Shown piece after piece: positions 47,042 through 64,000 of a DNA stretch of 64,000 nucleotides. The notes below the pieces were generated by a model. That model worked only from the letters and a program-made list of their open reading frames with translations, searched no databases and was not told the DNA's origin. Within the stretch, counting starts at the first letter, position 1. Every line of letters begins with the position of its first letter. Origin of the DNA: Tetradesmus obliquus (Eukaryota > Chlorophyta > Chlorophyceae > Sphaeropleales > Scenedesmaceae). The position numbers were made by a program, and so were the translations under genes. The stretch spans positions 496,001-560,000 of the forward strand of contig CP126200.1 of NCBI GenBank assembly GCA_030272155.1, written 5' to 3'.

Positions 47042-47236
47042 GGCTAAACCCTAAAACCTGCTTGTTTGCAGTTATGACCAGCGTGCAAACTTCACCGGCA
47101 TCAATCATGACACAGCCTCGACGAAAGTTGAGGAGTGGGGCTTGATAGCTCAGCTGGAAGAGCGTTAGACTGAAGATCTACAGGTCCCCAGTTCGATCCT
47201 GGGTCAGGCCATTTTGTCCCCTGGACAAACTGGCAA
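47042..47236 (+). repeat. Left arm of a tRNA-containing inverted repeat
   Basis: About 195 bp, the reverse complement of 47929-48124 with only a few mismatches. The arms start GGCTAAACCCTAAAACCTGC and end GGACAAACTGGCAAT; each contains one tRNA-Phe gene. The spacer is about 690 bp. Confidence 0.93.
47139..47211 (+). tRNA. tRNA-Phe (GAA)
   Basis: 73 nt fold: acceptor GGCTTGA/TCAGGCC (one G-U pair), D stem GCTC/GAGC, anticodon loop CTGAAGA giving GAA, T arm CCCAG-TTCGATC-CTGGG, discriminator A, no intron. The outermost anticodon-stem pair is a mismatch. No CCA is encoded, as expected for a nuclear gene. Confidence 0.93.
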
Positions 47237-47928: not shown

Positions 47929-48124
47929 ATTGCCAGTTTGTCCAGGGGACAAAATGGCCTGACCCAGGATCGAACTGGGGACCTGTAGATCTTCAGTCTA
48001 ACGCTCTTCCAGCTGAGCTATCAAGCCCCACCCCTCAACTTTCGTCGAGGCTGTGTCATGATTGATGCCATTGAAGTTTGCACGCTGGTCATAACCGCAT
48101 ACAAGCAGGTTTTAGGGTTTAGCC
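47929..48124 (-). repeat. Right arm of the tRNA-containing inverted repeat
   Basis: Pairs with 47042-47236. It ends directly against the CGCATC and the LINE fragment that starts at 48131. Confidence 0.93.
47955..48027 (-). tRNA. tRNA-Phe (GAA)
   Basis: Identical in the tRNA body to the copy at 47139-47211 but on the minus strand, so the two genes are convergent. Anticodon GAA in loop CTGAAGA. Confidence 0.93.
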
Positions 48125-48130
48125 CGCATC

Positions 48131-48519
48131 GTGCAGTGTCTCCTGTCGGTCCCGCGTGCTCCTGCTTGCTGCAGTCTGGTGTGTACATCAGTGCCTTGGT
48201 GCAATCATGCCAAACACCTATGGTAAGCAGCACCATTGTGCATCCCGCTTGCTGTTTGGACCATGCCTGCCTTCCCTTGTGCGTTTTGTGCCCTGTGCTT
48301 TGAGCACCCTGCTGCTTTTCGTGCTGCACTTCGCACATGCTGCACTGCATGTACTTGTTGGTTTATGGGGAGGTAGGGGCTGCAAGATGCCTCTGGAGTA
48401 TTACTTTGGTTGCATCTTGTGGCTTGCTATCGGGTTCTCATGATATGTGAGCTGAAAGAGGGGCAAGTGACTCGCTCTAGGGCGATAGCTTGCCCACCCC
48501 TGTAACAGACCTCTCTCTC
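48131..48519 (+). mobile_element. LINE 3' fragment (copy D)
   Basis: Nearly identical to the 3' UTR of the full LINE (from about 57673). It is 5'-truncated, preceded by CGCATC (48125-48130) and followed by CGCATCT (48520-48526). A further tail-only piece CTAACAGACCTCTCTCT (48527-48543) is followed by another CGCATCT (48544-48550). Confidence 0.9.
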
Positions 48520-50393
48520 CGCATCTCTAACAGACCTCTCTCTCGCATCTCAATTGTAAACAAGCAAGTGGTTGTCAGCGACCCAGGCAGCGGTACGTAA
48601 GGAGCCTTAGACGAACGTGAAGTCCTTAACAAGGATGACTAGTTTCGGCTTTTGACAGCCTCATCAGACCCTGCGTAGACCACATGCGTGTAAGGCTAAG
48701 TATAAGTGCTCACGAAGGAGCCGTACAGCTGACAAAGACACTGACAGTGTCAGCTGTACGTGTACTGCCTCCGGCAGTGAAAGTACGATGCTGCCATGTG
48801 ATGTGATCATGCATGGCAAGCAGCATGCAAGCATGGTAAATGCAAGCACATGTAAGGCACTTAAACTTCAGTGCCGCGCGCGAATTAGGCGCGATGCAAT
48901 GGATTTGTTTTGCCCTGAGCAAGGCGTAAAAAGGCTTGGCTTGCTTTGCCCTCTGGCCCAGCCCGGCTGCGCCAGTTGCGGCCCGCGAGTCGGAAGATCG
49001 TCTAGTACAGCTTCTTCTAATGCTGGAAGCTATATTAGATAAGAGGAGTGGCGTCCTGCAGGCCGATACTGCCTGCCTACGCAGCTACGCCGGGTCACCG
49101 AAGAGACAGCACAGTTGACAGCCGTGCAGCACGCAGTGGACGCCCAGGCAGATGGCTACAACCGGAGGAAGATGTGCTCAGCAATAGTTTAGTTTTGGGC
49201 GCTCGTCAGCAGCAGCTGGCGCCTGTGGTTGCGTCATGGTCCCCAGCAGCAGGGCTACAGCAGAATAAGGCAAGGTGCTGGTAATGCTCGAGTGTGCTGC
49301 GGCGCCCTTGCAAATGTCGTCCACCAATGTGTGTTCGATTACGGCAACCCCCCCATGACTGTTGAGCGTGCTGGACTGCTGGCCCAGTGTCTAGAGGTGC
49401 TCAGCTGTTCACTCAGCAGTGCTGCAGCGCGCCTGCAGCAGATTTCTAGACAACAGCTGGGCCAGTGGATTGCCTGCCATTAGGGTTGTCTGGGTGTTGT
49501 ATTCTACTTGATTTTTCATCTGCTGTGCGCAGGGAGCAGCAATGTGCTTGCATTCATATTGCTGCACTCACATCAGCCGGTTGTCAACTGCATTGCTGGT
49601 CTGGCAGCTACCTGGGGCGGTGGTGGTGCCCTTGCTTGTGGTGACAGTGTAGCCACACAGTGGAGTTGCTGCATGTAGTCAGCGGTAGGAGTGGTTTTTT
49701 GTTTTTGTAGGTCAGCTTAGCTAGTTGCAGCGGTAGGAGTGGTTTTCTTTGTGCTGGGATGTAGTGCAGCCTAGTGCTTTGTCATGCAGCAACAACAGTG
49801 TGGTGTTGCAGCCAGGTCTCTGTAAGTGTTGCTTGCATGCTGTATCATGCCATGCGCTTACATGCTTGCTTTGCCATGCCATGCTGTCCCTTGGAGGCGA
49901 CCACTCGGTTTTGCTGCAGCATTGTGGTCATTTTGCTAGGCGGGCAGTGAGGCTGCAGACTTGCTGTTCCGTCGTGATGGTGGTGGGGGACGGAGTTGGA
50001 CTGAAACCCTACCTGGCTGGTATGATACGCCAGTTCAAGAGGCTGGAATTGCCTGGCCCCCATGTGTAACAAACACAAACAAACATCTGACAAACAAAGC
50101 GGCGCCTCTCTCCGCAAACCTCTTTTCTTTTCTTCTCTTCTCTTCTCGATCGCCATGCAGCTCCTGCTGCACGCGCTCTTCTTGGGCCTTCTCGACCCAT
50201 CTTTTTTCCAGCCCTAATCACACCTAAGCCATCCATTACTCTTTGTCATAGCGTTTCGAGCAGCGTAGGCGGGAGCTGGCGCTCCTGCCCGGCTGGCCAC
50301 AACCTGCCGGCCCGGGGCCTGCTGGACGCCCCTGCCGTGCCTGCTCGCCAACTATGGGCGCCTTAACCACCCTTTAGCTTCACATTACGTTAC

Positions 50394-51973
50394 TTGCAGA
50401 TGCCTCGCAGCAATAGCCCCTCGCGGAAGCCGCAGCAGCAGCAGCAGCAGCAGCAGCGCAAGCCGCAGCAGCAGCAGCAGCAGCAGCAGCAGCGTAACAA
50501 GCTTAAGAAGCCTCTGATCCTGCTCAAGGTGCCGACAGAGGATATAGCAGGACTGGACTGCTCCACGGCAGCTTTCACGGTGCGGTATCCTGCTCTTCTG
50601 CCTGAGCAGCGCCAGCTCGTCAGCAGCAACCTGCTACGAGCAGTAGGCGCGGTGTGCAGCGCTGCGTGCGGTGCAGCACAACTTTCAGCAGATGAGGTGC
50701 AGCTGCACATCAACCCCCCTCGCTTCAGGGACACAGCAGACAAGCATGATACGTTCGTGGAGGTGCAGGCGGTTGGCCCAGTGGCCATGGCCAGCGCCCT
50801 CGCTGACATGCTCTCTGCTGAGGGCACTCTGCCCCTCCCGGAGCCATACTCTACCCCAGGCTTTCAAGGCGCCGCCATGCTGACAGTGGGACTAACCACG
50901 GGCGCCAGGCCCACGCTCAGTTACAGAGCCACGCGTGTCACAGGTGTCAATGTCTCGCTCAGCAACGCTGTGCTCCGCCGCTGCCTGGAAGGCGCCGGCT
51001 TCCGCACAGCAGGCTGCTTCCCAGTGCCCAACGACGGGTGCGCAGCCAACATGGCTGACCGCCGCCTGGTTGTCGCGGTGCTGCCCCCGAGCACGGCCGG
51101 CTCCGGCTTGTTCGACCTGCAGGTGGTCGACAGCTCTGGCGCCAGCCCACTGCCGCGCTTCCAGCACAGCCAGGCCAGCATGGCTGTGCTCCCGCATCCA
51201 GGGCCTAGCATGCCGCCCTGGCTGTGCACGAAGCAGCAGCAGCAGCAGCAGCAGCAACAGCAGGGAGCTGGCGCTGCTGCCACAGCCGAGGCAGCCGCAG
51301 CAGCTGCTGCCGCCGGCAGCAGCAGCAGCAGCAGTAGCAACAGCGACAGCGGCAGCAGCGCCACAAGCGGCACGTACGCCAGCGTTGTTTCTGGCGGTGC
51401 AGGCGGCGCCGAGCTGACCGGCAGCAACAACAACAGCGGCAGCCGCAGCACGAGCAGCAACAGCAGCAGCAATACGGCTGCTGTCAGTCCTGATGACCAG
51501 CAGCAGCAGCAGCATGCGCAGCAGCAACAGCAGCAGCCGCCACCGCCGCCTCCTCCAGCAGGTGGTGTGCCTCCGGCGGCGCCAGGTGCCACCACTGCAG
51601 TGACGCCGCCGCCGCAGCAGCAGCAGCAGCAGTCCACGCCGCCTCCAGCAGGTGGTGTGCCCCCGGCAGCCTCAGCTGCCACCACTGAAGTGCCACCCCA
51701 GCCGCAGCAGCAGCAGCAGCAGTCCACGCCGTCTCCAGCAGATGGTGGGCCTCCGGCAGCGTCAGCTGCCGCCAGTGAAGTGCCACCCCAGCAGCAGCAG
51801 CAGCAGCAGCAGCAGTCCACGCCGTCTCTAGCAGATGGTGCGCCTCCGGCAGCGTCAGCTGCCGCCAGTGAAGTGACGCCTCAGCCGCAGCAACAGCAGC
51901 AGCAACAGTCCACGCCGTCTCTAGCAGATGGTGCGCCTCCGGCAGCGTCAGTTGCCGCCAGTGAAGTGCCACC

Positions 51974-52020
<47 letters not shown>

Positions 52021-52084
52021 CCACGCCGTCTCTAGCAGATGGTGTGCCGCCGGCAGCGTCAGCTGCCGCCAGTGAAGTGCCACC

Positions 52085-52116
<32 letters not shown>

Positions 52117-52180
52117 CCACGCCGTCTCCAGCAGATGGTGTGCCTCCGGCAGCGTCAGCTGCCGCCAGTGAAGTGCCACC

Positions 52181-52227
<47 letters not shown>

Positions 52228-52931
52228 CCGCACCGGCTCCAACAGATGGTGTGCCTGCTTCCTCGCCTCCTGCAAAGCCTGCTGCCGCACCTAAGGCGAC
52301 GCCCAAGCAGCGACAGCAGCAGCAGCAGCAGGGGAAGACCAAGCAGCGGCAGCAGCAGCAGCAGGGGCAGCCTGCACAGCAGCAGCAGACGCAGCAGCAG
52401 GTGCCGCCTCCAGCTGAGGCCGCGCCTGCTGCCGCGCTTGCGCTGTTGGCTGTTGAGGACCCGGAGGACTGGTATGAGTATGGGGCAGCCCCGCCGCGGC
52501 GCCAGCGCAAGCGGATGCGGCCACGGCGGCGGCCGCAGCAGCAGCTGCCGGAGCCGCCGCTGAGCCTGCGCCTGCCGCGCGCCAAGCGCCCAGCTGACTT
52601 CTCTGCCTCGGATTTTGTGTATTCGAGCAAGGCCGTGCAAGTCAGCCAAGGGCAGCGCGCTGCAGTGGTGGCGCAGGACATGGTGGTGGCTTCAGCGGCG
52701 CCTGCGGCGCCGCGCCTTGGCCGGCCCCCGGTCCGCAAGCCCTCAGGGCACCAGGAAGAGCGCTGGAAGCTGCTGCAGCAGCTGCAGTGGCAGCCTCACG
52801 ACTTCCAGCTCTACCCTACCCCACAGCAGCAGCAGCCGCAGCAGCAGCAGCCGCAGCAGCAGCAGCAGCAGCAGGCCAGCACTGCTGGCGCCACGCCTCC
52901 CGGCGCGGCACCCCCCTCCCACGACGCCTAA
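50394..52931 (+). CDS. LINE ORF1 protein
   Basis: ATG preceded by TTACTTGCAG; hence it may be a splice product, though a direct start is simpler. The frame opens at 50394 (translated from ...AG|ATGCCTCGC near 50400) and ends TAA at 52929-52931; up to 845 residues. N-terminus Q-rich and basic (QRNKLKKPLILLKVPTEDIA), then a possibly folded ~180-residue region (FTVRYPALLPEQRQLV, then VEVQAVGPVAMASALADML). Next come Gln, Ser and Ala runs, then about eight tandem copies of a ~110-130-bp unit coding PSLADGAPPAASAAASEVPP plus poly-Gln (51540-52255), and a basic C-terminus (RRQRKRMRPRRR). LINE ORF1 proteins bind the element RNA; no RRM, coiled coil or zinc knuckle was recognised with certainty. Confidence 0.85.
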
Positions 52932-55900
52932 ATGCCCGGTGCAACCGGGCCTACAAAGGCTGGCATGCGCAAACACGCCCTGCGCATTGCCAGTCATAAT
53001 GTGGGTGGCGTGGGCTGTGCGGGGCTCCTGGCCTGCGCAGCGCAGGCGGCAGCAGGTTGGGTGGACCTGGATCTGCACGTCGTTGCCGTGCAGGAGTGCA
53101 GGTTGCAGTATGATGAGATTGCACAGGTGGTGGCGGCGCTAAATGCAGCAGCAGCTCAGCGGGCTGCTGCTACGCAGAAGCCCCATCATGCAGGGTTTGA
53201 CTTTAAGTACAGCTTCAACTCTGATCCTTTGCACCCCTACTCAGCTGGCAACCTCATCATGTGGCAGCGACAGCTGGTATCCAAGGGCTCCCTACAAGTG
53301 CTACCTGAGGCTGACGCCGACAGGGACGCCCGCGGCCGTCTGATGGTGCTCCACTTTAAGTGGGGTGGCCATACTGTTCATCTTGTTAATGTATACTGTC
53401 CTAATGATTCTGTGGACCGCCAGGCCTACATCACAGGCACGCTGGCGCCGCTTTGGGCGGCCGACCCTACAAGCAGCATCTTCATCGGCGACTGGAACTA
53501 TGTTGATGATCCTGTGGCCGACAGACGCTGCCTTGCTGGCCAGCCCACCACGCCCGACGCCCCATCCATGCGGGCTTGGCAAGCAGCGGCACCAGGTGCT
53601 GCTGATGCGTACCGGTGCTTGCACCCTACGCGCCGCACCTACACGTTCATCCATCGCAACCCGCAAATTGGACATGTAGCGCGGCTGGATCGAGCTTATG
53701 TTGGCAGCGCGCTGCGCGCCAGCGTGGTGTCATGTGCCACAGCTCCCTCGAGTGTCTCTGACCACTTCCCCTTGGTGCTTGAGCTGGCTCCCGTGCAGCC
53801 CCCTCACCCCACTGGCCCTGGCCTTGCCCGCGCCCGTGTGGACTTCTGGAGCAGCCCCAACCACCGCGCCCTGCTCAAGGCTTGGGTGCTCATCGAGCTG
53901 CAGGGCGAGCCAACGTCCGACTTTGCCCGCCTTGTTTGGTGGCCTGGCTTCAAGCAACGGCTCCTGGCCAGGTGCCGGGAGATTCGCAAGGCCTGGCGCG
54001 CTGACACAGCGCTGCCGACGTACGCCGCTGCCCAGCATCAGGTGCAGGCAGCCCTGGAGCAGCTTGGCGCAGCTGCAGGTCAGCCGCAGATCAACGCAGC
54101 GATGGCGGCGCTGACGGCTGCCCGCGCAGCCCTCCGCGCCGCCCAGCAGGCAGCATGGTCAGCCAGCGAACGACTGCAGCGGCAGCAGTGGCTGCACCGC
54201 GGGGAGCAGCCCAACCCCTGCATCACGGAGCAGCTGCGTGCCCTGGAGCGAGCTCCTACCTCCAGGAAGGTGGTTGCCCTACGCAGTACAGCCGGCGCGT
54301 ATGTCTGGGAGGGAGCAGGGCCTGCCAAGGTGGCCATCACGCAGTGGGCTGGTGTGAGTGCGCAGCCGGCAGTGGACCCAGCCGCCCAGGCTGCCATCCT
54401 CGCAGCCGTCACCAGTTTGCCTCGGCAGCCGGCAGCAGCAGATGGCAGCGAAGTGGTCACCGCAGCCGCAGTGCTCCAGGCTATGTCAGACTCCAAGCCG
54501 AACACGTCCCCAGGCCTGGATGGCCTGCCTGTTGCAGTGTACAAGCACTGCAAGGAGCTGCTCGCGCCGGTCTTGGCGCGTGTGTTTACAGCAGTAGGCA
54601 CGCTGGGGCAGACACCGGCCGGTTTCCTGGACGGTGTGGTGATTGGCATCTTCAAGGCTGGCGATGTTACCCTGGCAGCCAATTACCGCCCCATCACCCT
54701 GCTCAACACCGACTACAGGCTCCTGGCCAGAATTTTGGCCTCCCGCCTGCAGGCAGTGCTAGATCAGGCTATCTCTCCTACGCAGACAGCTTTCATCAAG
54801 CGCCGCAGGATCGGCCACAACATCATCACCATGCAGCTCCTGCTGCACGCGCTGCCAGAAGACAGCACAGTGGTGGCAGCACTGCTGGATTTTGCCAAGG
54901 CGTACGACACCTTGGACAGGCCCTTCCTGCTGTCTGTCATGAGTGCTATGGGCGTGGGGCCTGAATTCTGTAAGTGGGTGAAGTTACTGCTCACCAACAC
55001 GCATGCGTGCGCGTGCATGAATGGCTTTGTGTCTGGCATGCGCAGGTTTGATGCTGGCGTGCGGCAGGGGTGTCCCCTGTCTCCTCTGCTCTACTTGTTT
55101 GTTGGTGAGGCATTGTTGCGATTTTTGCAGAGTAAAGGCATCAACATCACCGTGCAAGGTGTGCAGTTGTCAGCGACTCAGTTTGCCGATGACACGCAGG
55201 TCTACCTGCGCTCCCCTGCACAGGTTGCACAGTTTTTGCTACATATGCAGGTTATGGCAGCCGCGTCTGGGCAGCAGCTCAACCTGCACAAATCCAAGTT
55301 GCTTTTGCTGGGTGCTACTGCGCGGCAGCAACACGCGACGCTCTCCCAGCAGCACGCTGCTGGTGTGTTGCCGCTCAGCCCTGTCCTGCAGGCCGATGTG
55401 TTGGGTGTGTGCGTGGGCTCTGACTCTCCGGTGGATTGGGGTCAGAAGCTGGCTTCTGTGGATGCTGCGCTCGCGCGGCTGTCGCACGTTCCGCAGCTTT
55501 CGGTGTTTGGCAGAGGTATGGGTAGCGCTGCTTATGGTGTGAGCACCTTGCTTTATGCAGCTGAATTCTCTGATTTGCCGCCTGATGTTGATCGTCAGCA
55601 CCTTGTTGCGGCGGTTGGGAAGCTAGTGGATAGAGGGTTGGCACCTGCTTCGTCTGTGCGGCGTTTCACTGGTGTGGCTGCTCGCTTTTTGGCGGGCAGG
55701 CCGGCTGAAGGTGGCTTTGGTGCTTTGCCATGGCTTGAACACATACGTGCACGGCATGCTTGGTGGGGCGCGCAATTTGCTACTGCGCCGCCTGACACTG
55801 AGCTGCCTTGGATCCGCATTGGGCGGGAGCTATTGCGTTCTAAGCATAAATGGTGGGGCCCATTGTCCTTGTTTGACAGCTTTGAAGACACGCAAACGCC

Positions 55901-57491
55901 GATGGAGCCGTCGCAGGCGTTCCCTCAGCAGTCCCTCCCTCCCCCGCCGCTGCGCCGCATGATTGCTGGTCTTCAAGCGCTAGGCAAAGTTTGTGATGTG
56001 AAGGCTTTGGCGCCTGCGGCGCCTGCCCCTGCACTGCCGCCGCCACATCCTCAACAGCTGTCAGACGTGCAGCAGTTGCGTGCACAGCTACAGGCTGTGC
56101 AGGATGCGCCGGTGCTGCAGCCCGGGGCTTGGTGTAGTTTGGCTCCTGTCTTTGCTAACCCTTTTTTGCAAGCAATGGTTGGGTTTGTGCCCGGTGGGCT
56201 GCAAATGCATCCCGTGCCCTCTGTGCGCGGGCCACATGCATGTTCTGGCGGCAAGTGTCGGCCGCGCATCCGCACTGTGGCCGATCTCTGTCGCGCTTGG
56301 CATGTGATCCAGCATGCTGCACGGCAGCAGCTGCCACACCCATTGCTGCCGTACGGCTCCAACTTCAGCAATGCAGACAACGAATCGGCAGATTTGACAG
56401 ACTTGGTTAACTTGTTGCCCATGCCGTGGCATCGGGCTGCCTTGGCTGTTGTGCGGCATCCTGCAGCAGACCGGCCCTGGCCGCCTGCAGCTGTGCCAGA
56501 CCCGCCATGTGTGCCTTCTGCAGCAGAGCAGCATGTTGAGGCCATGTTGGTGGCGCGGCTAGGCTGGCGGAATCATCGCGGCAAGACGGTGTCTGTTGCG
56601 CAATTGTCTGTTCGTGAAGCTACCTCATTGCAGCTTGGTCCCCTGCGTGCTGAGCGCCAGGAGCGGCGCACTAGGTTTGTCAGTGCTGCGATCGGTGCGG
56701 GTGCCCCGCCCGCGGCGTTGACTCGTGGTTTGCAATGTGTGGCGGCCGCCCAGGGCGCACTATGGAAGATGCGCTGGGATAATGCGTACAAGGAGACGTA
56801 TTGGCGGCTGATCATGGATGGCTTGCCTACGTCGCAGCGCATGCACCAGCAGCATGATACATGCATGTGTGGCGCTGCGTGCCCTGGTCTGGTGCACCAT
56901 TTTTGGGAGTGCCCAGTTGCGGTAGCGGTGATTGACAGCCTGCTGTCTGCGTTGCCTGCAACATGGTGTACGCGGGCTGCAGGCCGCCCGCCGCTTGCTA
57001 TGCGGCATGTCTGGTTGATGCAGCGGCCTCCCGGCCCTAAGCGGCTCCACCAGGGTGTTTGGGGGGTTATTTGTTTAGCTGCTCTGAATGCCATGGATGT
57101 TGGCCGACGGCAGGCTAACACGCTGCACATTCCGCCGCCCGCGCCTGCTGCGCCGCGGCCGTCTGCGCCGCCGCCGCAATGGCAGGTACCTATTACAGAT
57201 GTGTTTCAGCCTGCAGCTCTCACGGCTGCGCAGCAACAGCATAACCAGCTGGTTGAGCAGCGTAGGCAGCAGCAGCTGCTGCAACAACAACAACAGCGAC
57301 AGCAACTAGTAGCGCAGGTGTTACAGGAGGCGAAGCAGCAGGCGGTTTTGCGGTTTTGGGAATTGCTTGCTGATTTTGTGGCAATGGAGGCTGCGCCGGC
57401 TCATTGGCGTGTTGCGGTGCCTGGAGATCACCCGTTCTTGCGATCTGATCCAGCACAGCTGCGCATTGTACTGGCGCCCCGCTCTGGTTGA
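52932..57491 (+). CDS. LINE ORF2: endonuclease and reverse transcriptase
   Basis: 1519 residues. It nicks the target DNA and copies the element RNA into the nick (target-primed reverse transcription). Domains: EEP/APE-like endonuclease, residues 15-290 (RIASHNVGG, VQECRL at ~53, IGDWN at ~184, SDHFPLVLEL at ~274); reverse transcriptase, about 540-800 (GIFKAGDVTLAANYRPITLL at ~568, ALLDFAKAYDTL, RQGCPLSPLLYL, catalytic QFADDTQVYL at ~749); C-terminal Cys/His cluster CMCGAACPGLVHHFWEC at ~1309, a zf-RVT-like knuckle. No RNase H domain seen. The ATG follows the ORF1 stop without a gap (TAAATG), pointing to coupled termination and restart. The frame is intact, so the copy looks recent. Confidence 0.95.
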   Translation: MPGATGPTKAGMRKHALRIASHNVGGVGCAGLLACAAQAAAGWVDLDLHVVAVQECRLQYDEIAQVVAALNAAAAQRAAATQKPHHAGFDFKYSFNSDPLHPYSAGNLIMWQRQLVSKGSLQVLPEADADRDARGRLMVLHFKWGGHTVHLVNVYCPNDSVDRQAYITGTLAPLWAADPTSSIFIGDWNYVDDPVADRRCLAGQPTTPDAPSMRAWQAAAPGAADAYRCLHPTRRTYTFIHRNPQIGHVARLDRAYVGSALRASVVSCATAPSSVSDHFPLVLELAPVQPPHPTGPGLARARVDFWSSPNHRALLKAWVLIELQGEPTSDFARLVWWPGFKQRLLARCREIRKAWRADTALPTYAAAQHQVQAALEQLGAAAGQPQINAAMAALTAARAALRAAQQAAWSASERLQRQQWLHRGEQPNPCITEQLRALERAPTSRKVVALRSTAGAYVWEGAGPAKVAITQWAGVSAQPAVDPAAQAAILAAVTSLPRQPAAADGSEVVTAAAVLQAMSDSKPNTSPGLDGLPVAVYKHCKELLAPVLARVFTAVGTLGQTPAGFLDGVVIGIFKAGDVTLAANYRPITLLNTDYRLLARILASRLQAVLDQAISPTQTAFIKRRRIGHNIITMQLLLHALPEDSTVVAALLDFAKAYDTLDRPFLLSVMSAMGVGPEFCKWVKLLLTNTHACACMNGFVSGMRRFDAGVRQGCPLSPLLYLFVGEALLRFLQSKGINITVQGVQLSATQFADDTQVYLRSPAQVAQFLLHMQVMAAASGQQLNLHKSKLLLLGATARQQHATLSQQHAAGVLPLSPVLQADVLGVCVGSDSPVDWGQKLASVDAALARLSHVPQLSVFGRGMGSAAYGVSTLLYAAEFSDLPPDVDRQHLVAAVGKLVDRGLAPASSVRRFTGVAARFLAGRPAEGGFGALPWLEHIRARHAWWGAQFATAPPDTELPWIRIGRELLRSKHKWWGPLSLFDSFEDTQTPMEPSQAFPQQSLPPPPLRRMIAGLQALGKVCDVKALAPAAPAPALPPPHPQQLSDVQQLRAQLQAVQDAPVLQPGAWCSLAPVFANPFLQAMVGFVPGGLQMHPVPSVRGPHACSGGKCRPRIRTVADLCRAWHVIQHAARQQLPHPLLPYGSNFSNADNESADLTDLVNLLPMPWHRAALAVVRHPAADRPWPPAAVPDPPCVPSAAEQHVEAMLVARLGWRNHRGKTVSVAQLSVREATSLQLGPLRAERQERRTRFVSAAIGAGAPPAALTRGLQCVAAAQGALWKMRWDNAYKETYWRLIMDGLPTSQRMHQQHDTCMCGAACPGLVHHFWECPVAVAVIDSLLSALPATWCTRAAGRPPLAMRHVWLMQRPPGPKRLHQGVWGVICLAALNAMDVGRRQANTLHIPPPAPAAPRPSAPPPQWQVPITDVFQPAALTAAQQQHNQLVEQRRQQQLLQQQQQRQQLVAQVLQEAKQQAVLRFWELLADFVAMEAAPAHWRVAVPGDHPFLRSDPAQLRIVLAPRSG

Positions 57492-58066
57492 CCTTCCTGC
57501 TTTTACATGATGTGCTGTCAGTAGTTGTCCAATCTCCACTTTCTGGCAAGGCCATGTTGCATGTCGTGTGTCACTGTGCTTGATTTTCCAGCTCTGTGTG
57601 TCGCATTGCGTGCTTCTGTGCTTGTCAGCCATGAGGATTGCAGAAGCAGTAGCACCTTAGTTTGCATGTCACGTGCAGTGTCTCCTGTCGGTCCCGCGTG
57701 CTCCTGCTTGCTGCAGTCTGGTGTGTACATCAGTGCCTTGGTGCAATCATGCCAAACACCTATGGTAAGCAGCACCATTGTGCATCCCGCTTGCTGTTTG
57801 GACCATGCCTGCCTTCCCTTGTGCGTTTTGTGCCCTGTGCTTTGAGCACCCTGCTGCTTTTCGTGCTGCACTTCGCACATGCTGCACTGCATGTACTTGT
57901 TGGTTTATGGGGAGGTAGGGGCTGCAAGATGCCTCTGGAGTATTACTTTGGTTGCATCTTGTGGCTTGCTATCGGGTTCTCATGATATGTGAGCTGAAAG
58001 AGGGGCAAGTGACTCGCTCTAGGGCGATAGCTTGCCCACCCCTGTAACAGACCTCTCTCCGCATCT

Positions 58067-58867
58067 GCGTAGGCAGCAGCAGCTGCTGCAACAACAACAA
58101 CAGCGACAGCAACTAGTAGCGCAGGTGTTACAGGAGGCGAAGCAGCAGGCGGTTTTGCGGTTTTGGGAATTGCTTGCTGATTTTGTGGCAATGGAGGCTG
58201 CGCCGGCTCATTGGCGTGTTGCGGTGCCTGGAGATCACCCGTTCTTGCGATCTGATCCAGCACAGCTGCGCATTGTACTGGCGCCCCGCTCTGGTTGACC
58301 TTCCTGCTTTTACATGATGTGCTGTCAGTAGTTGTCCAATCTCCACTTTCTGGCAAGGCCATGTTGCATGTCGTGTGTCACTGTGCTTGATTTTCCAGCT
58401 CTGTGTGTCGCATTGCGTGCTTCTGTGCTTGTCAGCCATGAGGATTGCAGAAGCAGTAGCACCTTAGTTTGCATGTCACGTGCAGTGTCTCCTGTCGGTC
58501 CCGCGTGCTCCTGCTTGCTGCAGTCTGGTGTGTACATCAGTGCCTTGGTGCAATCATGCCAAACACCTATGGTAAGCAGCACCATTGTGCATCCCGCTTG
58601 CTGTTTGGACCATGCCTGCCTTCCCTTGTGCGTTTTGTGCCCTGTGCTTTGAGCACCCTGCTGCTTTTCGTGCTGCACTTCGCACATGCTGCACTGCATG
58701 TACTTGTTGGTTTATGGGGAGGTAGGGGCTGCAAGATGCCTCTGGAGTATTACTTTGGTTGCATCTTGTGGCTTGCTATCGGGTTCTCATGATATGTGAG
58801 CTGAAAGAGGGGCAAGTGACTCGCTCTAGGGCGATAGCTTGCCCACCCCTGTAACAGACCTCTCTCC
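58067..58867 (+). mobile_element. 5'-truncated LINE copy (C1)
   Basis: Begins in the ORF2 C-terminal coding region (matching A from 57260), keeps the ORF2 stop and the whole 3' UTR, and ends CTCTCTCC followed by CGCATCT (58868-58874). It starts directly after the CGCATCT that ends copy A. Confidence 0.95.
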
Positions 58868-58874
58868 CGCATCT

Positions 58875-59303
58875 GGAGGATTGCAGAAGCAGTAGCACCT
58901 TAGTTTGCATGTCACATGCAGTGTCTCCTGTCGGTCCCGCGTGCTCCTGCTTGCTGCAGTCTGGTGTGTACAGCAGTGCCTTGGTGCAATCATGCCAAAC
59001 ACCTATGGTAAGCAGCACCATTGTGCATCCCGCTTGCTGTTTGGACCATGCCTGCCTTCCCTTGTGCGTTTTGTGCCCTGTGCTTTGAGCACCCTGCTGC
59101 TTTTCGTGCTGCACTTCGCACATGCTGCACTGCATGTACTTGTTGGTTTATGGGGAGGTAGGGGCTGCAAGATGCCTCTGGAGTATTACTTTGGTTGCAT
59201 CTTGTGGCTTGCTATCGGGTTCTCATGATATGTGAGCTGAAAGAGGGGCAAGTGACTCGCTCTAGGGCGATAGCTTGCCCACCCCTGTAACAGACCTCTC
59301 TCT
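58875..59303 (+). mobile_element. 5'-truncated LINE copy (C2)
   Basis: Matches A from 57633 (3' UTR only) with a few substitutions, ends CTCTCTCT followed by CGCATCT (59304-59310). It starts directly after the CGCATCT that ends C1. Confidence 0.95.
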
Positions 59304-59310
59304 CGCATCT

Positions 59311-62300
59311 GCGCATTGCCAGTCATAATGTGGGTGGCGTGGGCTGTGCGGGGCTCCTGGCCTGCGCAGCGCAGGCGGCAGCAGGTTGGGTGGACCTGGA
59401 TCTGCACGTCGTTGCCGTGCAGGAGTGCAGGTTGCAGTATGATGAGATTGCACAGGTGGTGGCGGCGCTAAATGCAGCAGCAGCTCAGCGGGCTGCTGCT
59501 ACGCAGAAGCCCCATCATGCAGGGTTTGACTTTAAGTACAGCTTCAACTCTGATCCTTTGCACCCCTACTCAGCTGGCAACCTCATCATGTGGCAGCGAC
59601 AGCTGGTATCCAAGGGCTCCCTACAAGTGCTACCTGAGGCTGACGCCGACAGGGACGCCCGCGGCCGTCTGATGGTGCTCCACTTTAAGTGGGGTGGCCA
59701 TACTGTTCATCTTGTTAATGTATACTGTCCTAATGATTCTGTGGACCGCCAGGCCTACATCACAGGCACGCTGGCGCCGCTTTGGGCGGCCGACCCTACA
59801 AGCAGCATCTTCATCGGCGACTGGAACTATGTTGATGATCCTGTGGCCGACAGACGCTGCCTTGCTGGCCAGCCCACCACGCCCGACGCCCCATCCATGC
59901 GGGCTTGGCAAGCAGCGGCACCAGGTGCTGCTGATGCGTACCGGTGCTTGCACCCTACGCGCCGCACCTACACGTTCATCCATCGCAACCCGCAAATTGG
60001 ACATGTAGCGCGGCTGGATCGAGCTTATGTTGGCAGCGCGCTGCGCGCCAGCGTGGTGTCATGTGCCACAGCTCCCTCGAGTGTCTCTGACCACTTCCCC
60101 TTGGTGCTTGAGCTGGCTCCCGTGCAGCCCCCTCACCCCACTGGCCCTGGCCTTGCCCGCGCCCGTGTGGACTTCTGGAGCAGCCCCAACCACCGCGCCC
60201 TGCTCAAGGCTTGGGTGCTCATCGAGCTGCAGGGCGAGCCAACGTCCGACTTTGCCCGCCTTGTTTGGTGGCCTGGCTTCAAGCAACGGCTCCTGGCCAG
60301 GTGCCGGGAGATTCGCAAGGCCTGGCGCGCTGACACAGCGCTGCCGACGTACGCCGCTGCCCAGCATCAGGTGCAGGCAGCCCTGGAGCAGCTTGGCGCA
60401 GCTGCAGGTCAGCCGCAGATCAACGCAGCGATGGCGGCGCTGACGGCTGCCCGCGCAGCCCTCCGCGCCGCCCAGCAGGCAGCATGGTCAGCCAGCGAAC
60501 GACTGCAGCGGCAGCAGTGGCTGCACCGCGGGGAGCAGCCCAACCCCTGCATCACGGAGCAGCTGCGTGCCCTGGAGCGAGCTCCTACCTCCAGGAAGGT
60601 GGTTGCCCTACGCAGTACAGCCGGCGCGTATGTCTGGGAGGGAGCAGGGCCTGCCAAGGTGGCCATCACGCAGTGGGCTGGTGTGAGTGCGCAGCCGGCA
60701 GTGGACCCAGCCGCCCAGGCTGCCATCCTCGCAGCCGTCACCAGTTTGCCTCGGCAGCCGGCAGCAGCAGATGGCAGCGAAGTGGTCACCGCAGCCGCAG
60801 TGCTCCAGGCTATGTCAGACTCCAAGCCGAACACGTCCCCAGGCCTGGATGGCCTGCCTGTTGCAGTGTACAAGCACTGCAAGGAGCTGCTCGCGCCGGT
60901 CTTGGCGCGTGTGTTTACAGCAGTAGGCACGCTGGGGCAGACACCGGCCGGTTTCCTGGACGGTGTGGTGATTGGCATCTTCAAGGCTGGCGATGTTACC
61001 CTGGCAGCCAATTACCGCCCCATCACCCTGCTCAACACCGACTACAGGCTCCTGGCCAGAATTTTGGCCTCCCGCCTGCAGGCAGTGCTAGATCAGGCTA
61101 TCTCTCCTACGCAGACAGCTTTCATCAAGCGCCGCAGGATCGGCCACAACATCATCACCATGCAGCTCCTGCTGCACGCGCTGCCAGAAGACAGCACAGT
61201 GGTGGCAGCACTGCTGGATTTTGCCAAGGCGTACGACACCTTGGACAGGCCCTTCCTGCTGTCTGTCATGAGTGCTATGGGCGTGGGGCCTGAATTCTGT
61301 AAGTGGGTGAAGTTACTGCTCACCAACACGCATGCGTGCGCGTGCATGAATGGCTTTGTGTCTGGCATGCGCAGGTTTGATGCTGGCGTGCGGCAGGGGT
61401 GTCCCCTGTCTCCTCTGCTCTACTTGTTTGTTGGTGAGGCATTGTTGCGATTTTTGCAGAGTAAAGGCATCAACATCACCGTGCAAGGTGTGCAGTTGTC
61501 AGCGACTCAGTTTGCCGATGACACGCAGGTCTACCTGCGCTCCCCTGCACAGGTTGCACAGTTTTTGCTACATATGCAGGTTATGGCAGCCGCGTCTGGG
61601 CAGCAGCTCAACCTGCACAAATCCAAGTTGCTTTTGCTGGGTGCTACTGCGCGGCAGCAACACGCGACGCTCTCCCAGCAGCACGCTGCTGGTGTGTTGC
61701 CGCTCAGCCCTGTCCTGCAGGCCGATGTGTTGGGTGTGTGCGTGGGCTCTGACTCTCCGGTGGATTGGGGTCAGAAGCTGGCTTCTGTGGATGCTGCGCT
61801 CGCGCGGCTGTCGCACGTTCCGCAGCTTTCGGTGTTTGGCAGAGGTATGGGTAGCGCTGCTTATGGTGTGAGCACCTTGCTTTATGCAGCTGAATTCTCT
61901 GATTTGCCGCCTGATGTTGATCGTCAGCACCTTGTTGCGGCGGTTGGGAAGCTAGTGGATAGAGGGTTGGCACCTGCTTCGTCTGTGCGGCGTTTCACTG
62001 GTGTGGCTGCTCGCTTTTTGGCGGGCAGGCCGGCTGAAGGTGGCTTTGGTGCTTTGCCATGGCTTGAACACATACGTGCACGGCATGCTTGGTGGGGCGC
62101 GCAATTTGCTACTGCGCCGCCTGACACTGAGCTGCCTTGGATCCGCATTGGGCGGGAGCTATTGCGTTCTAAGCATAAATGGTGGGGCCCATTGTCCTTG
62201 TTTGACAGCTTTGAAGACACGCAAACGCCGATGGAGCCGTCGCAGGCGTTCCCTCAGCAGTCCCTCCCTCCCCCGCCGCTGCGCCGCATGATTGCTGGTC

Positions 62301-63820
62301 TTCAAGCGCTAGGCAAAGTTTGTGATGTGAAGGCGTTGGCGCCTGCGGCGCCTGCCCCTGCACTGCCGCCGCCACATCCTCAACAGCTGTCAGACGTGCA
62401 GCAGTTGCGTGCACAGCTACAGGCTGTGCAGGATGCGCCGGTGCTGCAGCCCGGGGCTTGGTGTAGTTTGGCTCCTGTCTTTGCTAACCCTTTTTTGCAA
62501 GCAATGGTTGGGTTTGTGCCCGGTGGGCTGCAAATGCATCCCGTGCCCTCTGTGCGCGGGCCACATGCATGTTCTGGCGGCAAGTGTCGGCCGCGCATCC
62601 GCACTGTGGCCGATCTCTGTCGCGCTTGGCATGTGATCCAGCATGCTGCACGGCAGCAGCTGCCACACCCATTGCTGCCGTACGGCTCCAACTTCAGCAA
62701 TGCAGACAACGAATCGGCAGATTTGACAGACTTGGTTAACTTGTTGCCCATGCCGTGGCATCGGGCTGCCTTGGCTGTTGTGCGGCATCCTGCAGCAGAC
62801 CGGCCCTGGCCGCCTGCAGCTGTGCCAGACCCGCCATGTGTGCCTTCTGCAGCAGAGCAGCATGTTGAGGCCATGTTGGTGGCGCGGCTAGGCTGGCGGA
62901 ATCATCGCGGCAAGACGGTGTCTGTTGCGCAATTGTCTGTTCGTGAAGCTACCTCATTGCAGCTTGGTCCCCTGCGTGCTGAGCGCCAGGAGCGGCGCAC
63001 TAGGTTTGTCAGTGCTGCGATCGGTGCGGGTGCCCCGCCCGCGGCGTTGACTCGTGGTTTGCAATGTGTGGCGGCCGCCCAGGGCGCACTATGGAAGATG
63101 CGCTGGGATAATGCGTACAAGGAGACGTATTGGCGGCTGATCATGGATGGCTTGCCTACGTCGCAGCGCATGCACCAGCAGCATGATACATGCATGTGTG
63201 GCGCTGCGTGCCCTGGTCTGGTGCACCATTTTTGGGAGTGCCCAGTTGCGGTAGCGGTGATTGACAGCCTGCTGTCTGCGTTGCCTGCAACATGGTGTAC
63301 GCGGGCTGCAGGCCGCCCGCCGCTTGCTATGCGGCATGTCTGGTTGATGCAGCGGCCTCCCGGCCCTAAGCGGCTCCACCAGGGTGTTTGGGGGGTTATT
63401 TGTTTAGCTGCTCTGAATGCCATGGATGTTGGCCGACGGCAGGCTAACACGCTGCACATTCCGCCGCCCGCGCCTGCTGCGCCGCGGCCGTCTGCGCCGC
63501 CGCCGCAATGGCAGGTACCTATTACAGATGTGTTTCAGCCTGCAGCTCTCACTGCTGCGCAGCAACAGCATAACCAGCTGGTTGAGCAGCGTAGGCAGCA
63601 GCAGCTGCTGCAACAACAACAACAGCGACAGCAACTAGTAGCGCAGGTGTTACAGGAGGCGAAGCAGCAGGCGGTTTTGCGGTTTTGGGAATTGCTTGCT
63701 GATTTTGTGGCAATGGAGGCTGCGCCGGCTCATTGGCGTGTTGCGGTGCCTGGAGATCACCCGTTCTTGCGATCTGATCCAGCACAGCTGCGCATTGTAC
63801 TGGCGCCCCGCTCTGGTTGA
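59311..63820 (+). CDS. LINE ORF2, 5'-truncated copy
   Basis: Open to the TGA at 63818-63820 with endonuclease, reverse transcriptase (QFADDTQVYL) and C-terminal Cys/His cluster all present, but it lacks the first 16 residues, the start codon and ORF1. The first in-frame ATG lies well inside the endonuclease, so a normal product is unlikely. Confidence 0.9.
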
Positions 63821-64000
63821 CCTTCCTGCTTTTACATGATGTGCTGTCAGTAGTTGTCCAATCTCCACTTTCTGGCAAGGCCATGTTGCATGTCGTGTGT
63901 CACTGTGCTTGATTTTCCAGCTCTGTGTGTCGCATTGCGTGCTTCTGTGCTTGTCAGCCATGAGGATTGCAGAAGCAGTAGCACCTTAGTTTGCATGTCA
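59311..64000 (+). mobile_element. 5'-truncated LINE copy (B), continuing past the window
   Basis: Starts directly after the CGCATCT of C2, at the position matching 52982 of copy A (RIASHN of the endonuclease). It is practically identical to A over 4.7 kb; I saw only two substitutions in ORF2 (near 62335 and 63553), both synonymous. The 3' end lies outside the window. Confidence 0.95.

Follow-up and report, generated by a model that had tools for sequence, protein, structure and literature searches.

How do retroposon copies come to lie head to tail, all pointing one way and with the same short word at their junctions? We addressed this question in a 64,000-nucleotide stretch of the green alga Tetradesmus obliquus (contig C10, positions 496001-560000; hereafter the window), taken from a genome of 104.7 Mb in 17 contigs. 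Here, copies of a long interspersed nuclear element (LINE) family, fam1, and of a second retroposon family, f2, follow one another, all on the + strand, from 48124 to past 64000, beside a gene for a phenylalanine transfer RNA (tRNA-Phe). The evidence points to a pile-up of tRNA-gene-directed retrotransposons without long terminal repeats (non-LTR), which would work like TRE5 of Dictyostelium and re-use a single site; we put the probability of this reading at about 0.83. At many sites of the genome, a tRNA gene about 80 bp away is the common factor.

The array and the tRNA genes beside it are composed as follows:

47139..47211, + strand: second tRNA-Phe(GAA) gene, on the other arm of an inverted repeat (sequence analysis including ARAGORN)
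47955..48027, - strand: tRNA-Phe(GAA) gene, putative landing-site anchor (ARAGORN; Rfam RF00005, 62 bits), 5' end at 48027
48124..48130, + strand: tRNA-proximal landing word (C)CGCATC, starting 96 bp upstream of the tRNA-Phe 5' end
48131..48519, + strand: copy D, fam1 LINE, 5'-truncated, with (TC)n tail
48520..48526, + strand: landing word CGCATCT
48527..48543, + strand: fam1 mini-copy, tail only, 17 bp
48544..48550, + strand: landing word CGCATCT
48551..50083, + strand: f2 copy (other retroposon family), ending GTGTAACAAACACAAACAAA
50084..50116, + strand: short remnants between f2 and the full-length fam1 (CATCT, f2-like and fam1-like tail pieces, CGCA), read by eye
50117..58059, + strand: full-length fam1 LINE, 7.9 kb, its 5' end taken from one comparison copy on C2
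50394..52931, + strand: fam1 open reading frame 1 (ORF1), Q/P-rich
52932..57491, + strand: fam1 ORF2, 1519 aa, intact, with reverse transcriptase and a weak apurinic/apyrimidinic (APE)-type endonuclease match
58060..58066, + strand: landing word CGCATCT
58067..58867, + strand: copy C1, fam1, 5'-truncated
58868..58874, + strand: landing word CGCATCT
58875..59303, + strand: copy C2, fam1, 5'-truncated
59304..59310, + strand: landing word CGCATCT
59311..64000 and beyond the window, + strand: copy B, fam1, 5'-truncated, most of ORF2 present

The tail of copy B lies beyond the window and is followed by CGCATCT ending at C10:560394. Each junction word directly precedes the start of a copy, and from the second word onward each is itself preceded by a (TC)n tail. 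All six words reported by the initial annotation, from 48125-48130 to 59304-59310, are present, and the (TC)n before them varies in length as described; the 5' ends of the copies differ as well. That annotation had read a chain of six copies in one orientation with no foreign DNA between them. The single orientation holds. The copy count does not: the supposed single element A (48551-58059) was resolved, by means of a second near-identical copy on C2, into the f2 copy and the full-length fam1 LINE, and the f2 copy with the adjoining remnants is foreign DNA inside the chain. The array thus comprises at least seven insertions from two families.

Flank comparisons identified the words as duplicated target DNA. 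Copies of fam1 were counted genome-wide by a 19-mer near the 3' end (237 occurrences, 209 of them listed), and 40 stretches over fam1 clusters, from C1 to C4:5.27 Mb, were read; together with the window they cover 94 of the 209 listed places and yielded 104 mapped copies. The words differ between loci. The longest stretch common to the 5' and 3' flanks of a copy averaged 5.57 nt, compared with 3.23 nt in mismatched pairs, and a match of at least 5 nt was found for 64 of the 104 copies (10.6% expected), with copies whose 5' flank was cut by a stretch edge scored as misses. Because flank sharing exceeds that of mismatched pairs and the words depend on the locus, the junction words are target-site duplications, belonging to the locus and not to the element. 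The earlier proposal that the 7-mer is target rather than element sequence is thereby borne out, and each insertion leaves a fresh copy of the word, making the landing site in effect self-renewing. Two other words tested genome-wide, GGTAGGG and GGCCGC, were each found at 5 places, 4 of which lie in one array.

The 3' end of fam1 reads CCCCTGTAACAGACC(TC)n. Its ORF2 contains a reverse transcriptase (Pfam RVT_1, aa 582-806, 1.2e-29) and an APE-type endonuclease match below the Pfam cut-off (aa 46-278, E 0.0011); its best PDB match is LINE-1 ORF2p (aa 131-796, E 3e-40). ORF1 (845 codons) gave no Pfam match. The mixed arrays hold at least four further tail types, namely f2 (ACAAA-rich), f3 ((AATGC)n), f4 (CCCCTCTTCTTC) and f5 (GTAACAAGCC(TC)n). 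Among these, f4 is a separate LINE whose ORF2, 1430 codons without a stop, is 32% identical to that of fam1 and matches RVT_1 (1.2e-26) and an endonuclease (1.2e-13), both above the Pfam cut-off, as well as zf-RVT weakly; its tail lies about 530 bp downstream of ORF2 in both copies where this is visible. Judged by an ORF2 combining an APE-type endonuclease with a non-LTR reverse transcriptase, fam1 and f4 are predicted to be L1-like non-LTR retrotransposons. f5 was grouped with ORF2s 78-87% identical to the fam1 ORF2. f2 is also found apart from fam1 elsewhere in the genome, and its copy at 48551-50083 has no ORF of at least 150 aa.

Of the 104 mapped fam1 copies, 15 measure at most 30 bp with the pyrimidine tail excluded. 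Among the shortest are three tail-only copies in a row at C4:1770474-1770543 (locus L062), 15-18 bp without the pyrimidine tail and followed by GCCGC, GCCGC and GCTGG, respectively. At the other extreme, runs of full-length ORF2s of a second subfamily (86-87% identity) were observed at C8:1496011-1539230 and C1:4959823-5005686; the C8 run has a spacing period of 19,333 bp and looks like a tandem duplication. Copies of fam1 at C9:3272-4704 (within 5 kb of the contig start) and C4:7754764 (within 1 kb of the contig end) are perhaps subtelomeric.

The arrays are one-way and mix families across the genome. The listed fam1 tails form 103 clusters on all 17 contigs; for f2 and f4, 100 of 103 and 100 of 230 tails were listed. 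Among the listed fam1, f4 and f2 tails, 147 of the 148 neighbouring pairs within 1 kb share a strand, including 39 of 39 cross-family pairs, whereas 71 of 117 pairs do so at distances of 20 kb to 2 Mb. Moreover, a word of at least 5 nt is common to 31 of 52 consecutive tail pairs of different families (5.5 expected) and to 43 of 74 of the same family (8.6 expected), a duplicated segment at C4:2.93 Mb having been entered twice in these counts. An older tail lies within 45 bp upstream of 67 of the 101 usable fam1 copies (the 104 mapped minus 3 with too little upstream sequence). It was recognised as a same-family tail in 45 and by the GTAAC rule, which 2.4% of control windows pass, in 22; of these 22, two resemble fam1 variants and one (C4:2758665) seems to be a chance match. 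No older tail was found for the other 34 copies.

These 34 copies revealed the link to tRNA genes. ARAGORN detected 21 tRNA genes in 36 joined stretches, including the two of the window, and its intron mode gave the same 21. A tRNA gene lies 63-142 bp from the 5' end of 15 of the 34 copies (at 14 tRNA genes) and within 500 bp of 17; by comparison, a single fam1 3' end has a tRNA gene at 160 bp or less. Thirteen of the 15 copies lie on the upstream side of the tRNA gene and diverge from it. Measured at 14 loci, the distance from the mature tRNA to the upstream word or LINE start is 56-126 bp (median 77 bp), the C10 array falling within this range; words were picked by eye, and the LINE start was used at C4:1284805, 2627438, 4075829 and 4848439, where the duplication is short or unclear. 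The initial annotation had placed copy D at the end of a tRNA inverted repeat, which proved to be the right clue.

Since the stretches had been picked by fam1, the test was repeated from the tRNA side, using 62 tRNA genes from an Rfam genome search in which 63 of 1714 candidates were scored. Within 1 kb, 15 of these genes have a listed tail in the upstream-away placement (upstream of the tRNA gene and directed away from it), 1 upstream-towards, 0 downstream-away and 2 downstream-towards, compared with 0.11-0.17 per placement in shifted controls (0.11 for upstream-away). Within 10 kb, the corresponding counts were 27, 5, 5 and 4, against 0.9-1.2. Leaving out 7 tRNAs in previously read DNA gave 10, 0, 0 and 1 for the other 55 genes within 1 kb (control 0.15-0.18; upstream-away 0.16) and 22, 2, 3 and 3 within 10 kb (control 0.6-1.0). 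Furthermore, the association extends over families: within 1.5 kb, fam1 was found at 10, f4 at 5 and f2 at 7 of the 62 tRNAs, where 0.17, 0.0 and 0.07 were expected.

The order of growth can be read at a tRNA-Ala gene at C4:2190130, whose flank consists of CTTCGAAACC followed by GGCCAAAC. In the array at this gene, the junction behind the fourth listed tail is GAAACCGGCCAAAC, that is, GAAACC plus GGCCAAAC, and GAAACC is the tRNA-side flank. The fourth copy has only GGCCAAAC on its own 5' side, behind the third tail. Therefore, the fourth copy adjoined the tRNA flank at the time of its own insertion, which made the long duplication, and the third copy was inserted later, between the fourth copy and the tRNA gene. 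An age order sought through divergence in 12 arrays gave no direction (the difference between first and last copy was positive in 4 arrays and negative in 7; P 0.24).

Two inverted tRNA-gene pairs bear on the same flanks. In the tRNA-Phe pair of the window (47039-47237/47929-48127) and in a tRNA-Ala pair (C4:2190130/2198533, loci L063/L064), the similarity of the upstream flanks stops at the LINE landing point, as if the tRNA gene and about 70-100 bp of flank were a duplicated unit in both. No LINE was found in the first 150 bp of the upstream flank of the second tRNA-Phe gene. Elsewhere in the window, an ORF at 677-1570 encodes leucine-rich repeats resembling those of plant receptor kinases.

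We propose the following account of the duplications, the words common to families, the one-way order, the polarity and distance of the tRNA link and the order at the tRNA-Ala junction. By analogy with TRE5-A, the initiation complex of RNA polymerase III (Pol III; TFIIIB/TFIIIC) on tRNA genes would recruit the insertion complex, bringing fam1, the related f5, the distant f4 LINE, and f2 to a position that precedes a tRNA gene by about 55-130 bp, the 5' end of the element turned towards that gene. A nick at a spot favoured at each tRNA gene would be followed by insertion and duplication of about 5-11 bp (here CGCATC or CGCATCT), presumably through 5'-truncated target-primed reverse transcription. 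As the tRNA-side flank would remain unchanged, the next element could enter the same bond, on the tRNA side of the older copies. Different families could re-use one bond because the tRNA-bound Pol III complex would set the cutting spot. The outcome would be a head-to-tail, one-way array of mixed families with one locus-specific word at its junctions.

Several observations weigh against this account. For 17 of the 34 fam1 copies that lack an older tail upstream, no tRNA gene lies within 500 bp; by our reading 7 of them lie inside mixed arrays and 10 outside, and no tRNA, 5S or U6 gene was found in the stretches of these 10. Two of the 10, at C2:4279003 and C2:6513383, still begin small arrays. 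Two of the 15 copies near a tRNA gene sit about 100 bp downstream of it rather than upstream, and 35 of the 62 sampled tRNAs have no listed upstream-away tail within 10 kb, the tail lists being incomplete. Unlike TRE5, the elements are not practically all at tRNA genes, with 15 of 34 having one at 40-160 bp and 17 of 34 within 500 bp. Finally, growth at the tRNA-proximal end was read at a single junction and would have to apply generally.

The tRNA-less sites were searched further. In 20 of the 25 stretches without an ARAGORN tRNA, Rfam returned nothing at gathering score, and in 11 of these, searched at E up to 1, it gave 22 matches, all sub-gathering and none to tRNA, 5S or U6. A B-box-like motif lies within 300 bp of 3 of 12 tRNA-less sites, compared with 6.6% of control positions; the 12 include C4:2758665, which comes from the other class, and one site 283 bp from a tRNA gene. 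Two of the three motifs lie on the opposite strand at distances of 165 and 168 bp, where a B box is expected. We take these motifs as a weak, post-hoc hint.

The most serious alternative is that new copies home in on the 3' ends of existing copies anywhere in the genome, as for Zepp, and passively re-copy the word. The older tails upstream of 67 of 101 fam1 copies would fit such homing, as would the single fam1 insertion found in a fam1 body, against 78 kb of mapped element sequence, and arrays without a detected tRNA such as C2:4279003. Zepp clusters are attributed to nested insertion into existing copies (PMC8226300). However, homing to tails does not predict arrays on one side of tRNA genes, in one polarity and at 56-126 bp, nor the same word after tails of very different sequence, and the tRNA-side flank bases in the inner junction at C4:2190130 record an insertion on the tRNA side. 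We consider this alternative unlikely.

Head-to-tail copies would also result if one insertion had been multiplied by tandem duplication or unequal crossing-over. Some loci do show signs of it: C4 copies with an identical start lie 551 bp apart, and five fam1 tails at C6:5857454-5862207 recur with a spacing of exactly 1,182 bp, where part of a LINE has apparently been amplified in tandem. Against this, 36 distinct 5' ends were counted among 42 same-family array copies, and therefore most array copies are separate insertions; tails vary in length and families are mixed within one array, making duplication a very improbable source of the arrays. An assembly artefact has an equally slim chance of being the explanation: nearly identical repeats 0.4-8 kb in length are easily misassembled, but the same organisation recurs at many loci whose words and flanks are unrelated.

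The initial annotation had proposed an endonuclease specific for CGCATCT, whose own recognition sequence would be renewed by each insertion. The 7-mer does mark the junctions of this one array. However, it lies within 25 nt after the fam1 19-mer in just 5 of the 237 genomic copies, each of them belonging to this array (the tail-only mini-copy, having no 19-mer, falls outside this count), and this genome-wide count rules out CGCATCT as a recognition sequence. In the window itself the word occurs 15 times compared with 9.3 expected, which 4 of 100 shuffles reach and is not very unusual; its position is the non-random feature. Other loci of the same element carry other duplicated words, and comparing the flanks of isolated copies, a test the annotation itself had suggested, yielded unrelated target duplications. 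Moreover, no consensus beyond G+C-rich duplications was found at the 26 of the 34 no-older-tail sites with a duplication of at least 5 nt. A CGCATCT-specific enzyme is thus refuted. Concatemers formed by template jumping of the reverse transcriptase in one event would give head-to-tail order and very short pieces, but the target word between copies is not expected from a single event, and we dismiss them as hardly credible.

Other sequence cues were considered at the same sites. A preference for pyrimidine-rich targets was rejected, as pyrimidines make up 50% of the 8 nt preceding the duplication at the 26 sites, which is no signal. TGTAA, the chlorophyte poly(A) signal, is present near 3' ends; near the 34 no-older-tail sites it was found 6 times upstream and 10 times downstream, again no signal. 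CGCATCT also occurs five times at 118-bp spacing at C1:1019346-1019824, apparently in a tandem repeat unrelated to the array.

Among known systems, the closest in description are the TRE elements of Dictyostelium. TRE5 and TRE3 are described as LINEs whose insertions fall in a window next to tRNA genes, on the upstream side for TRE5 and on the downstream side for TRE3 (PMC5391098). The 5' end of TRE5-A always points towards the tRNA 5' end, and its target duplications vary in length; at occupied tRNA genes tandems are typical, in which the elements do not interrupt one another, and in one case a tRNA gene already carrying a TRE5-A had received a further one at 46 bp upstream. TRE5-A needs a functional B box, and in vitro its ORF1 protein binds the TFIIIB component TBP (PMC5391098). 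As described there, TRE5 shares with the algal arrays the upstream tRNA window, the 5' end facing the tRNA, target duplications and tandems. The algal window, at about 56-126 bp compared with about 47 bp, is wider and farther out. In addition, two LINE lineages with ORF2s 32% identical insert here at exactly the same site as f2, and the mixed arrays are long.

Other L1-type elements, NLTR-A and NLTR-B of social amoebae, appear in the table of a 2018 review at 2-6 and 39-64 bp upstream of tRNA genes (PMC5911963). They resemble the algal elements as L1-type insertions upstream of tRNA genes, and differ in hosts and windows. The non-LTR tRNA-targeting elements in that table come from social amoebae only, and the words 'alga' and 'plant' do not occur in the main text of the review. 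At the level of title listings, the open-access literature gave nothing relevant on tRNA-gene-directed LINEs in green algae. The arrays described here look like an independent case of tRNA-directed LINEs in another branch of eukaryotes. R1-type site-specific LINEs likewise form tandem arrays, by re-insertion at a duplicated target; the present array differs in having no fixed target sequence.

LINE clusters made mostly of 3' ends are described for Zepp and ZeppL of Coccomyxa and Chlamydomonas (PMC8226300, PMC3446292), and the Coccomyxa clusters are presented as one per chromosome. Our arrays share with them the clustering of mostly 3' ends. In contrast, fam1 is dispersed, with 103 clusters on 17 contigs, many of them at tRNA genes, and does not occupy one site per chromosome. 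The tails also differ, being (TC)n here and poly(A) in Zepp. One block at C7:3405994-3466609 extends over about 60 kb and holds 32 listed f2 copies, all on the - strand; a tRNA gene in the expected orientation lies 10.8 kb away, and the block is possibly a centromere. That the two LINE lineages and f2 converged on a single exact spot at each tRNA gene, and that tRNA genes seed runaway clusters of them, the largest of which, such as the C7 block, became the Zepp-like centromeric LINE blocks of green algae, is a speculative and rather doubtful extension. The arrays suggest a testable answer to the one-way clustering of algal LINEs. They record repeated hits on one bond by several families, and the target word serves as a barcode from which insertion order and site choice can be read.

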